Assembly (NCBI RefSeq): GCF_009741975.1
Contig: NZ_WPCF01000011.1
Span: forward strand, 1 to 38,711
DNA: 38,711 nucleotides
Reading direction: 5' to 3'
DNA from: Halobacterium sp. CBA1126
GTDB lineage: Archaea > Halobacteriota > Halobacteria > Halobacteriales > Halobacteriaceae
Part shown: positions 34,750 to 38,711 of the stretch, piece by piece
Position numbering within the stretch: the first letter of the stretch is position 1
How the letters are laid out: every line of letters begins with the position of its first letter
Position numbers and translations under genes: made by a program
Notes under the pieces: generated by a model
Seen by the model: only the letters and a program-made list of their open reading frames with translations
What the model was told of the DNA's origin: nothing
Database searches by the model: none

Positions 34750-34800
34750 TGGCCGTTCAGAACGGGAGCGGCGACCGGGAGGAGCTACGTCGTCGAGACG

Positions 34801-34832
34801 TGTGCGCCCGCGACACGACCGGGCGACAATCT
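34801..34832 (+). repeat. Left direct repeat of the metal cassette
   Basis: A 32-bp unit that starts tgtgcgcccgcgacac and matches 38525-38556 at 28 of 32 positions. It contains a cgcccg/cgggcg inverted repeat with a 9-nt loop. After a spacer of different length in the two copies, a shared cagtgaaac follows. It lies between the serine hydrolase stop and the FmdE-like gene. Confidence 0.7.
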
Positions 34833-34866
34833 ACTAGCCGGCTCGGTGGCAGTGAAACCGAGCGTT

Positions 34867-35532
34867 CTATGCTGAGTGTTCGATGGTCGTCACGGTGAAC
34901 AGCGAGTCGTCGGAGAGGACACGCTGGACACGGCCGTGCCACACGTCGGCGAACAGTTCGCGCTCGTCCTCGCTCGCGGTCCCCTCGATGATCTGCTGGA
35001 GGTTGCCGAGGGCTGGGCCGCCATCCGGCACGTCGCCGACGTGGTAGGTCACCTCGACAGTTTCGTCAGTGTCGGTCCGGCGGAAGCGGAACGTCGGGAC
35101 AGCACCGTCGGCGTCGAACGCGTCGAACGTGAGCATGTTCTGGCGGTCACCGTGACCGCCGGCGAGCCCACCGAACCCGTCTTCCTGAGCGGCGCCGGTC
35201 ACGTACGAGATGAGCCGTCCCATCACGCCGTAGGTGGCGTCGTCACGCGGCCCCGCAGCGAGTACTTCGACCTCGCTTCGGACGGGGAATTCGTCGGGAT
35301 ACAGCGCGTCGAGGCCCAACTGGACGATGCGATAGGCGCCCGACGCAGTCGGACACGAGTGGCCCGCCGCCTTCACCACGTCCCTGTAGGTGACGACGAA
35401 CGGGTCGCCGGACTCGAGGACGGCGAGTGCGTCCGCGACTGGGTCGCGGATACGGATTGCTTCGACGTCGTATTCGACAGCCCAGTTCCCCTCGGTACGG
35501 CCGGTGTCGGTCGGTGTCGTGTTTTCTGCCAT
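34867..35532 (-). CDS. FmdE-like protein in a metal-transport operon
   Basis: A 221-aa protein. The block VKAAGHSCPTASGAYRIVQL (H58, C60) resembles the GHxCPGxxxGYR signature of FmdE-family proteins. It is followed by DDATYGVMGRLISYVTG and GHGDRQNMLTFDAFD, whose spacing also recalls FmdE. FmdE proteins bind a metal through the His/Cys motif; their role is poorly defined. Here it is the third gene of the HMA/P-type ATPase operon, 41 bases after the ATPase stop, which suggests a metal-binding or sensing partner. Family assignment is moderate. Confidence 0.65.
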   Translation of the reverse strand: MAENTTPTDTGRTEGNWAVEYDVEAIRIRDPVADALAVLESGDPFVVTYRDVVKAAGHSCPTASGAYRIVQLGLDALYPDEFPVRSEVEVLAAGPRDDATYGVMGRLISYVTGAAQEDGFGGLAGGHGDRQNMLTFDAFDADGAVPTFRFRRTDTDETVEVTYHVGDVPDGGPALGNLQQIIEGTASEDERELFADVWHGRVQRVLSDDSLFTVTTIEHSA

Positions 35533-35573
35533 TATGAGTGGGTCGTGATCGCTCGTTCGTGGTTCGACGCTGT

Positions 35574-37499
35574 TCAGTACCGCAGCAGTCGCATGCCGTT
35601 GCCGATGACGGCGAGGACGCTGGCCTCGTGGACGAGCATTCCGAGCGCGAGCGTGACGTAGCTCGTCAGGACGCCCGCCAGCAGGAGCGTCACCGTCAGC
35701 ACCGCAAGCCCGACGTTCTCGTAGATGTTCCACCGGGTGGCCTTGCTGAGTGTCACCGCGTAGGGGATGCGGTCGAGGTCGTCCGCCATCAGCGCCATAT
35801 CCGCCGTCTCGATGGCGGTGTCCGTCCCGGCGGCGCCCATGGCGATGCCCACGTCGGCGGTCGCTAGCGACGGCGCGTCGTTGATGCCGTCGCCGACCAT
35901 CGCCACGACGTGGCCGTCCTCGCGGAACGCCTCGATGACCGCCTGCTTGTCTTCGGGGAGCAGTTCCGCGCGGTAGTCGTCGATGCCGACTTCCTCGGCG
36001 ACGGCACGGGCGGTGTGCTCGTTGTCTCCGGTGAGCATCACCGTCTCGATACCGGCGTCCTGGAGCTCCTGGACGACGCCGGGCGCCGCCTCGCGGAGCT
36101 CGTCGCACATAGCGACGGCGCCGACGACGACGCCGTCACGCACTACGTGGACGACAGTCTCGCCGCGCTCCTCGCGTTCGCGGACGTAGTCGCCGACTTC
36201 CTCGGCGACCTCGATATCGCGTTCGGCGAGCAACGAGCGGTTCCCGACGACGATCTCGCGGCCGTCGTAGAGGGCGACCACGCCCTTGCCAGCGATCACC
36301 TCGAAGCTCTCGGGGTCGGGGACCGGGCGTGCTTCCCCGGGTGCTGATTCGGTGTCTGCCTGGACGGCTTCCGTCCCGCCATCGGTGACTGCGGCCGGGC
36401 GGTCCTGCGCCGCTTCGAGGATGGCGTCACCGAGGTGGTGTTCGCTCTTCTTCTCGGCGACCGCCGCGAGTTCCAGCACCTCGTCGGCCTCGGCGTCGAA
36501 CCCTGCGACGTCGGCCACAGTCGTTTCGCCCTTGGTGAGCGTGCCGGTCTTGTCGAAGGCGACGAGGTCGATTTTGCCGGCCTGTTCGAGATGCTCGCCG
36601 CCCTTCATGAGGACGCCCGAACGTGCGGCGTTGCCGATAGCCGAGACGATGCTGACCGGCGGCCCGATCACCAGCGCGCCCGGACACCCGATGACGAGCA
36701 GCGTCAGTGACAGAATCGCGTTCTGTGTGGCTGCGTAGGCGCCGGCGGAGAGCGCCAGCACACCGGGCGTGTAGTACTTGGCGAAGCGGTCGATTAGGCT
36801 CTCGGTCGGTGACTGGGCCTCCTGGGCCGCCTCGACGCGCCGGATAATCCGCTGGAGCGTGGTATCGGTGCCGGAGCCGGTCGTCTCGACCTCCAGCGAG
36901 CCCTCCTGATTGATCGTCCCGGCGTAGACTTCGTCGCCGTCGGCTTTGTGGACGGGCGCGCTCTCGCCGGTCACCGGCGCCTGGTTGACGGCGCTCTCGC
37001 CCTCGACGACGTCGCCGTCCACGGGAATCTTCTCGCCGGGTTTGACGATCACGACCTCGCCCGCTTCGACCTCGCGGGCGGGGACCGCTCGTTGTTCGCC
37101 GTCGCGGCGCACGGTGGCCGTGTCCGGCGTCATCTCCAGCAGTTCTTCGAGGGCGTTGCGCGTCTTGCGCATCGTCCGCCCTTCGAGGTACGAGCCCAGC
37201 GTGAACAGGAAGACCACTGCGGCGGCCTCCCAGTACGACCCGATAGCGATCGCGCCGACGGCGGCCAGCGTCACGAGCGTCTTGATGCCGAGCGTCCGGT
37301 TTTCGACCTCGTGGTAGGCGGTTTTAGCGATGTCGTAGCCGCCGACGATAGCTGCGAGGACCAGGATCGCAGCGCTCGCCGTGTCGACGGTCGAAACGTA
37401 ACCGAGGGTCCATCCACCGGCATAGAGGATGCCGCTCACCGCGACGATGATGGCTTTCCGGTGTTTGCGGTAGTGCTGTTTGACTGATCGAGTATCCAT
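35574..37499 (-). CDS. P1B-type heavy-metal translocating ATPase with CPG motif
   Basis: A 641-aa metal-pumping P-type ATPase. Motifs include the actuator loop TGES (177-180), phosphorylated D316 in DKTGTLT, MLTGDN and VGDGINDAP. The membrane metal motif reads CPG at 272-274 where CPC, CPH, SPC or TPC is usual. The nucleotide-domain HP signature reads SEHHLG (352-357) rather than SEHPL. There is no fused N-terminal metal-binding domain; a separate HMA protein is encoded 11 bases upstream. The C-terminus has HEASVLAVIGNG in the last helix. The metal (Cu, Zn, Cd, Co or other) cannot be assigned safely. Confidence 0.9.
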   Translation of the reverse strand: MDTRSVKQHYRKHRKAIIVAVSGILYAGGWTLGYVSTVDTASAAILVLAAIVGGYDIAKTAYHEVENRTLGIKTLVTLAAVGAIAIGSYWEAAAVVFLFTLGSYLEGRTMRKTRNALEELLEMTPDTATVRRDGEQRAVPAREVEAGEVVIVKPGEKIPVDGDVVEGESAVNQAPVTGESAPVHKADGDEVYAGTINQEGSLEVETTGSGTDTTLQRIIRRVEAAQEAQSPTESLIDRFAKYYTPGVLALSAGAYAATQNAILSLTLLVIGCPGALVIGPPVSIVSAIGNAARSGVLMKGGEHLEQAGKIDLVAFDKTGTLTKGETTVADVAGFDAEADEVLELAAVAEKKSEHHLGDAILEAAQDRPAAVTDGGTEAVQADTESAPGEARPVPDPESFEVIAGKGVVALYDGREIVVGNRSLLAERDIEVAEEVGDYVREREERGETVVHVVRDGVVVGAVAMCDELREAAPGVVQELQDAGIETVMLTGDNEHTARAVAEEVGIDDYRAELLPEDKQAVIEAFREDGHVVAMVGDGINDAPSLATADVGIAMGAAGTDTAIETADMALMADDLDRIPYAVTLSKATRWNIYENVGLAVLTVTLLLAGVLTSYVTLALGMLVHEASVLAVIGNGMRLLRY

Positions 37500-37510
37500 A
37501 GCTCGTCTCC

Positions 37511-37723
37511 TCAGGCGGGCTGGGGCGTGTACCCCTGGTTCTCGATGGTCTGTTCGAACGTGGAGGGGTCGGCGACCGAATCGTCGTAGTCGATCTCGAC
37601 GCGGCCGGTCGAGTAGTGTACCTCGACGTCTTCGACGCCCTCCTGATTCGAGAGGGCGCGTTCGACGGTGCTCGCACAGCTCGGGCAGTCGAAGTCCATC
37701 ACGCGGAGTTGGGTTTCGCTCAT
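37511..37723 (-). CDS. HMA-domain metallochaperone (CopZ-like)
   Basis: A 70-aa ferredoxin-like HMA domain: SETQLRVMDFDCPSCASTVE, with metal-binding C13 and C16 in CPSC, then EGVEDVEVHYSTGRVEIDYD. It replaces the N-terminal domain missing from the ATPase encoded just downstream and would deliver metal to it. The start at 37723 (MSETQ) is preferred over 37747, which would place the N-terminus in the promoter. Confidence 0.88.
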   Translation of the reverse strand: MSETQLRVMDFDCPSCASTVERALSNQEGVEDVEVHYSTGRVEIDYDDSVADPSTFEQTIENQGYTPQPA

Positions 37724-37909
37724 TACAGTTCCACGTAGCACCCGCACCCCCTAAAGTATTTTTTATATGATATGTTTGAATCCCTATACGGGGTGTTTGA
37801 GCGGACAAACGGGTCGTCTAGAGCTTCCACTGAATCGCCGGTGGAGGCGTCAAACAGGCCCCATACAACGGTCGTTACTACTTAAGGTGCACGCGGCGTC
37901 GGTTCACAT
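37724..37909. promoter_or_regulatory. Divergent, AT-rich promoter/operator of the metal cassette
   Basis: An AT-rich block at 37752-37774 (tttttatatgatat) can serve as TATA for the HMA-ATPase operon on the minus strand. acttaag near 37878-37884 lies about 28 bases before the ArsR-like ATG at 37910. Between them gtttga occurs at 37774-37779 and 37795-37800 (21 bp apart, two helical turns), and its complement tcaaac at 37850-37855. These are good operator candidates for the regulator. Confidence 0.55.
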
Positions 37910-38443
37910 ATGAGCACGCCCGATGCCGGGAACGACCTCGACGACATCGCCGTTCGGGACACCCGAGTGTCCGACGCCATCGACGAACCGATGCGGGCGA
38001 TGATTCTCGACATACTCGCTGACGAGACGCTGACAGCGAGCGGGGTCCACGACCGGCTCGCCGACAGAGGCATCCACCGGACGGAGAACACGGTGCGCCA
38101 CCACATCAACGAACTTCGGGACGCCGGCCTCGTCGACGTCGTCCGGTTCGAAGAGGGGCGTGGCGGGACGACAAAGTACTACGGGGCGAACACGACCATC
38201 CTCTCGTACTCGATTCCGGAGTCGGCCGACCCGGCCATCCAGGAGATGGTCGGTGCCGTCCAATCACAGGTCGAGGCAGCGCTCGCCACGCTGACCGACG
38301 AGTACGGCGACGTTATCGACGATATCACGGCAGAGATGGAGCCCTGTGAGCACTGCCGCACGCAGAAATACGAGACGTACGTGATGTTGACGGTCCTCCG
38401 ACGAGCGTTCGTCCGAGCACAGCAAGACCGGGAGTCCGCCTAA
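37910..38443 (+). CDS. ArsR-like winged-helix metal-responsive regulator
   Basis: A 177-aa DNA-binding protein. The winged helix spans about residues 20-95 (MRAMILDILADETLTASGVH, recognition helix near RTENTVRHHINELRDAGLVD, wing GRGGTTKYYG). A C-terminal helical region follows, with a CxxC pair (C146, C149) in EPCEHCRTQKYE, a likely metal or redox ligand site. Transcribed divergently from the HMA-ATPase-FmdE-like operon, it most likely represses or activates it in response to metal. The leaderless start is supported by the AT-rich box 28 bases upstream. Confidence 0.88.
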   Translation: MSTPDAGNDLDDIAVRDTRVSDAIDEPMRAMILDILADETLTASGVHDRLADRGIHRTENTVRHHINELRDAGLVDVVRFEEGRGGTTKYYGANTTILSYSIPESADPAIQEMVGAVQSQVEAALATLTDEYGDVIDDITAEMEPCEHCRTQKYETYVMLTVLRRAFVRAQQDRESA

Positions 38444-38524
38444 CCAACGATAATCATTGGAACACAGCTGGAGAGCGGGCTGTTACGGGAATCCGAGTCC
38501 CCACCAAAGAGGCCACCGTTAGAG

Positions 38525-38556
38525 TGTGCGCCCGCGACACTATCGGGCGACCATCT
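38525..38556 (+). repeat. Right direct repeat of the metal cassette
   Basis: The second copy of the 34801-34832 repeat, 28 of 32 bases identical and in the same orientation, again followed by cagtgaaac. It lies in non-coding DNA about 80 bases after the regulator's stop. Just after that stop, ccaacgataatcattgg (38444-38460) is a near-perfect 17-bp palindrome with one mismatch. Confidence 0.7.
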
Positions 38557-38586
38557 GCGCCCAGTGAAACGAACGCAGTCCAGCAT

Positions 38587-38711
38587 CCGGCGACCGAGTG
38601 GTCCGAAGGACCCGGAGGGTCGCCGGTTCGCTGCGAGAGCGAACGAAGTGAGCGAGCGCGGGCCGACGAGCGACTAAGCGCCGAAGGCGCGCTGGAGTGA
38701 GGAGTGCTTTT
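38587..38711. repeat. Hairpin-rich intergenic tail ending in a T-run
   Basis: Consecutive perfect stems are 38587-38595 with 38618-38626 (9 bp, enclosing 38600-38604 with 38608-38612), 38626-38632 with 38638-38644 (7 bp), and 38678-38682 with 38686-38690 (5 bp). The window ends in gtgctttt. The purine-rich gagcgaacgaagtgagcgag style text is common in haloarchaeal non-coding DNA as I recall it. No gene is seen in this 268-bp end region (38444-38711). Confidence 0.5.

Follow-up and report, generated by a model that had tools for sequence, protein, structure and literature searches.

The block of four metal-handling genes near the right end of the stretch of DNA that was analysed (38,711 nucleotides of Halobacterium sp. 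CBA1126, hereafter the window) is, judging from sequence comparisons, most probably one cassette of a haloarchaeal array built by a trans-acting site-specific recombinase at an H/ACA gene. Such a recombinase would attach small cassettes, each with an att-like element of about 60 bp, at an H/ACA guide-RNA gene that is usually single-copy, either directly at its 3' end or at elements already present there. A crossover in a shared ACACTA core would leave the stem and the ACA box of the RNA gene intact, new elements would each receive the left core of their host, and the direct-repeat arrays would lengthen. By this route the array would have captured the metal unit, made up of an FmdE-like protein, a P1B exporter, an HMA chaperone and a regulator.

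A four-gene metal unit between direct repeats

The direct repeats at positions 34800-34832 and 38524-38556 are located on the same strand, are identical at 30 positions of a 33-bp alignment, and are both followed by cagtgaaac. A search of the window allowing three mismatches led to these two copies only (0 expected, 100 shuffles), while the best 33-mer match in shuffled repeat flanks was 18-20/33. The near-identity and common orientation reported in the initial annotation therefore hold, but not the length of 32 bp, since the whole element is about 60 bp long. The features of this region are the following.

34797..34860, + strand: array element 1, full copy of about 60 bp, left core TGTGCGCCCGCGACAC, right arm CGGGCGACAATCTACTAGCCGGCTCGG
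34867..35532, - strand: cassette gene, FmdE-like protein of 221 aa (weak match to Pfam FmdE, E 0.027)
35574..37499, - strand: cassette gene, P1B-type heavy-metal ATPase of 641 aa (TIGR01525, 571 bits, cut-off 346)
37511..37723, - strand: cassette gene, HMA metallochaperone of 70 aa with a CPSC motif (PF00403)
37910..38443, + strand: cassette gene, HTH putative metal sensor of 177 aa with a CEHC motif (PF12840)
38520..38573, + strand: array element 2, right arm shorter than in the consensus
38523..38711, + strand: start of a non-coding mini-cassette, intact in relatives, which runs past the contig end and resumes with the first part of reversed contig C171

Profile matches agreed with the four genes that the repeats had been said to enclose (FmdE-like, P1B ATPase, HMA and a regulator with CEHC), and the ATPase passed the curated cut-off of TIGR01525 (571 vs 346 bits). 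Pfam FmdE was matched by all 18 relatives scanned (best 6.7e-5), and a search of solved structures with the FmdE-like protein gave insignificant matches only. The metal role of the unit is a putative one. The block had also been described as less GC-rich at third positions, and the GC3 of its four genes is indeed 0.82-0.87 when the mean of the other called genes of the window is 0.927 (sd 0.069), a weak signal that stays within about 1.6 sd. The transmembrane metal motif of the ATPase is CPG (CPGALVIGPP, window 36660-36705) instead of the usual CPC, and the HMA domain is on a separate protein; the copies of genomes G008 and G297 have this feature as well.

The four genes are widespread in haloarchaea in identical order (52 loci fetched, a few with a partial set). 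The element is present at only one of the 52 fetched loci that hold the operon or its FmdE-like gene, that of Halolamina pelagica (L016); the other 51 are without it, and the metal operon therefore has no need of these repeats. The window does not hold a stand-alone metal cassette with private repeats, the element being that of a haloarchaea-wide array system with mostly unrelated genes. A chance or regulatory repeat (terminator-like and intergenic) around a conserved operon would agree with the short inverted repeat of the element and with its intergenic position, but not with the lack of chance matches, the 51 of 52 loci without an element or the anchored arrays found across families. This explanation is contradicted by the evidence of cassette exchange given below, and we give it practically no weight.

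The window unit in other genomes

Three other genomes, those of G008, Halolamina pelagica and G297, contain DNA with 86-90% identity to the window unit. The homology begins in the element (in its core, at 34801, in G008 and G297) and stops at the 3' end of the regulator gene (38428-38439), while the left flanks are unrelated in a base-by-base comparison of the window and G008. The block thus behaves as the discrete module that had been proposed, with homology starting at the repeat and copies elsewhere between unrelated flanks. The metal unit is located at the anchored array in G008 and Halolamina, whereas in G297 it has only one element and lies elsewhere than at the anchor. It is suggested that the G297 cassette is carried on an integrated mobile element; at this locus (L194, G297:C1:448702), two tyrosine-recombinase genes lie about 9 and 13 kb either side of the metal cassette. 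The right end of the unit varies between genomes, and in G008 no element directly follows the regulator gene. There a further 4 kb or so precedes the next element (L091:8926-12693), with genes that were assigned by eye as membrane, HTH, reductase and ApbE-like, possibly a fused cassette.

An extra copy of the element lies at the end of contig C171 of the same genome, and comparison with a relative puts this contig directly after the window end. The mini-cassette into which the window runs after element 2 is intact in G015; the last part of the window and the first part of reversed C171 align with neighbouring portions of it. The array of the window genome would most likely read metal unit, mini-unit, 7-kb unit and RNA gene; the 7-kb unit has permease-like and potassium-uptake-like genes (named by eye from sequence). 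A non-coding mini-cassette of about 210-360 bp, in which no gene was recognised, recurs in arrays of several families (window 38523-38711; L088:10499-10748; L091:12773-13133; L135; L144; L147).

Sequence and distribution of the element

The consensus of 50 copies of the element is GAAATGTACGCCCGCGACACTACCGGGCGANAATCTACTAGTAGGCTCGGTGGAAGTGAAAT. A model built from these copies was searched in 392 haloarchaeal genomes (one per species) and matched 118 of them before a stricter cut-off, E<1e-8, which was intended to drop anchor-only matches and at which the element was found in at least 79 of the 392 genomes, from 26 genera and seven families. The repeat is present across haloarchaea and is not specific to the metal cassette. 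Copies in genomes of the same genus are clustered on the same strand, often 0.5-1 kb apart, and elements of any one genome resemble each other and are directly oriented. Searches of PLSDB, INPHARED and IMG/VR with the element gave nothing or chance matches only, tRNA scans were negative, and an Rfam search with the cassette returned no family.

Inverted arms (TGTNCGCCCG and CGGGCGACA) flank a 9-bp centre in the element and look like a tyrosine-recombinase core site. Among the 50 elements, the inverted repeat showed no compensatory change and no pair with both sides changed, one pair of the hairpin is broken in 19, the paired cells equal those of shuffles, and DNA folding is not notably more stable than that of shuffles (z from -0.3 to -1.6). 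Arms bound by a protein are therefore preferred over a folded site, because the inverted repeat lacks compensatory change.

Units, each measured from one element to the next, have a median length of 911 bp (82 units) and mostly range from 0.2 to 2.5 kb. The arrays are mostly of the same orientation, with one gene or one toxin-antitoxin pair per unit; typical toxin-antitoxin-like contents are DUF433+DUF5615, UPF0175+DUF3368, and an HTH protein paired with a small partner. The genes of the units are found in both orientations (33 and 45). A classical integron or an integron remnant (IntI and attC) could be considered when the cassette sizes, the direct-repeat array and the toxin-antitoxin content are compared with those of chromosomal integrons, and other archaea do have integrons (PMC9668308). 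However, IntI was found above the curated cut-off (TIGR02249) in 0 of 30 genomes, none of the 50 elements had a GTTRRRY box, nor did any have both boxes (RYYYAAC/GTTRRRY), and the broken hairpin and the two gene orientations also speak against it. The IntI, attC-box and folded-structure tests contradict an integron, of which only the cassette array with direct sites was found, and we consider it very improbable.

The arrays are anchored at an H/ACA guide-RNA gene

The inspected anchored arrays each end against a partial copy of the element which continues into a conserved non-coding region of about 200-450 nt. Plain blastn detected this anchor region, usually once, in 138 genomes out of 194 and in 48 genera out of 65. 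Covariation analysis showed that its opposite strand folds into two hairpins with an ACA after each, 23 of the 58 consensus pairs having changes on both sides. The anchor thus has the hairpins with an internal pocket and the 3' ACA box of an H/ACA RNA, while an Rfam search with it matched no family. An H/ACA guide RNA made up of HP1, a long spacer and HP2 was predicted in Haloferax volcanii and other haloarchaea, with 23S rRNA as its predicted pseudouridylation target (PMC2584109), and the layout of the anchor agrees with it. The length of the spacer between the hairpins is highly variable, and further covarying hairpins are present within it (alignment A2, columns ~200-476; e.g. L088:10790-10960).

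The left core of every element corresponds to the 3' end of the RNA gene (about 20 bp), that is, to the 3' strand of its last stem and the ACA box. In the 29 anchored loci inspected, all 78 full elements, counted by hand, are on the strand of the anchor copy and on the 3' side of the anchor. The arrays, their anchor and polarity, the sharing of cassettes and the position of the junction are seen in the sequences themselves. One and the same neighbour, a D-2-hydroxyacid dehydrogenase gene, adjoins the array and the RNA gene in the family of the window and in some other families. Repeats that are ends of IS200/IS605-type or palindrome-associated transposable elements (PATEs), flanking genes by accident, would be plausible in haloarchaea, where such elements, with palindromes near their termini, abound (PMC3119063), were the elements not mostly at one anchor with a fixed polarity, half of each element not the terminus of an RNA gene that is conserved, and the units not different in content and shared as whole units. 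This origin is contradicted by the failure to find dispersed insertions, there being mostly one anchored locus per genome, and is highly unlikely.

Exchange of cassettes and position of the junction

An all-against-all comparison showed that whole units are common to different genera and families, at different positions of the arrays and between unrelated flanks. The units of G048 and G084, which belong to different families, align over 754 of 760 bp with 97% identity, whereas the 60 nt on their left are 23% identical; their left cores differ, and each matches the RNA gene of its own host. The variable dinucleotide of the core is that of the host RNA gene in 65 of 76 elements from 29 arrays; over 5000 permutations the mean was 28.9 and the highest count 53, and these counts ignore relatedness among genomes. 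The crossover is located within ACACTA because the base to the right of it is an A in the anchor and usually a C in the element. The core-host match is a prediction of conservative site-specific recombination into an att site of the RNA gene, which it supports, and selection for a functional RNA may further contribute to host-type cores. No exact empty site was found in any strain pair, the comparisons being between species, and genus-mates without elements carry other insertions at the site.

Host homologous recombination between the elements of about 60 bp could also shuffle the units, the core match being then due to gene conversion or to selection on the RNA. The likeness and direct orientation of the elements of one genome and the lack of a linked recombinase are in line with it, and host-type cores would likewise be enriched by selection that keeps the 3' end of the RNA working. 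However, it accounts poorly for cassettes that arrive across families with just 20-60 bp of shared sequence, for a junction confined to one 6-bp stretch and for elements far from the anchor which retain the host core when they no longer serve the RNA, and it leaves the uniform polarity towards one RNA gene unexplained. We regard it as unlikely and retain site-specific recombination in trans.

Candidate recombinase

The initial annotation correctly noted that no integrase lies inside the block, which would thus need a trans-acting enzyme or host recombination. No recombinase gene was found in any anchored array examined (PF00589, among the matches listed), and when recombinases of these genomes served as tblastn queries, none was found within such arrays. 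We infer the type of recombinase, a circular intermediate and present activity from the sequences. Among five array genomes with few recombinases, four clearly have one Xer-like family in common, and the fifth also has a member of it. This family, from which our candidate enzyme comes, occurs in 388 of 392 genomes, nearly always as a single copy, and its presence is therefore uninformative on a link with the arrays. Its proteins match the XerA, XerC and XerD models below their cut-offs. They have GD before the catalytic tyrosine (L216:904-1935 and orthologues), where Xer proteins usually have GH.

In Xer-dependent pdif modules, short modules lie between recombination sites and a chromosomal Xer-like enzyme acts in trans. 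The haloarchaeal cassettes would work alike if the Xer-like enzyme serves them, although the RNA-gene anchor has no counterpart there and the Xer link is a putative one in haloarchaea. A class-wide and independently evolved analogue of the integron, in which this housekeeping recombinase (388/392) captures and reorders cassettes in trans at the H/ACA gene, is a possibility that we put forward tentatively.

Comparison with known systems

The haloarchaeal arrays would work like an integron yet are not integrons. As in integrons (PMC9668308), small cassettes rich in toxin-antitoxin genes form a direct-repeat array at one chromosomal site, whole cassettes are traded between lineages, and off-array single-site copies are occasional; unlike in integrons, there is no IntI, attC box or conserved fold, genes are in both orientations, and an RNA gene takes the place of attI as the anchor. 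Elements that tyrosine recombinases integrate into tRNA genes (PMC8371274) also have as their target a small gene for a structured RNA, the 3' end of which is restored on insertion, and give direct repeats by repeated insertion, but here the target is an H/ACA guide RNA, and the units are mostly 0.2-2.5 kb with no integrase. The attB of such RNA-gene-targeting elements, at the 3' end of a small RNA, was thus found, and an integrase of their own was not, among the matches listed. PATEs and IS605 elements (PMC3119063) are likewise transposase-free, palindromic and haloarchaeal, whereas the array elements are non-dispersed, of fixed polarity and with an RNA-gene core.

Archaeal integrons have so far been found by IntI and attC criteria (PMC9668308, the text of which contains no word starting with Halobacter or halophil), and the targets reported for archaeal tyrosine recombinases are tRNA, intergenic and coding (PMC8371274). 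No description of these arrays was found in the open-access literature, subscription papers being outside the search. If our reading is right, haloarchaea possess a standing gene-capture platform at a guide-RNA gene, independent of integrons, by which toxin-antitoxin pairs, transporters and metal-handling genes are swapped between families, and which provides a mechanism for part of their heavy gene exchange. It would also offer a clear assay (att core and candidate recombinase) and a rule to locate mobile small genes in many genomes.

A few elements are located away from the anchor (G015, G297 and G180). In G015, two of them (L193; G015:C1:277729 and 285112), far from the anchor, enclose a 7.4-kb block with phytoene-synthase-like, RND-type transporter and regulator genes, possibly a second array or secondary sites.
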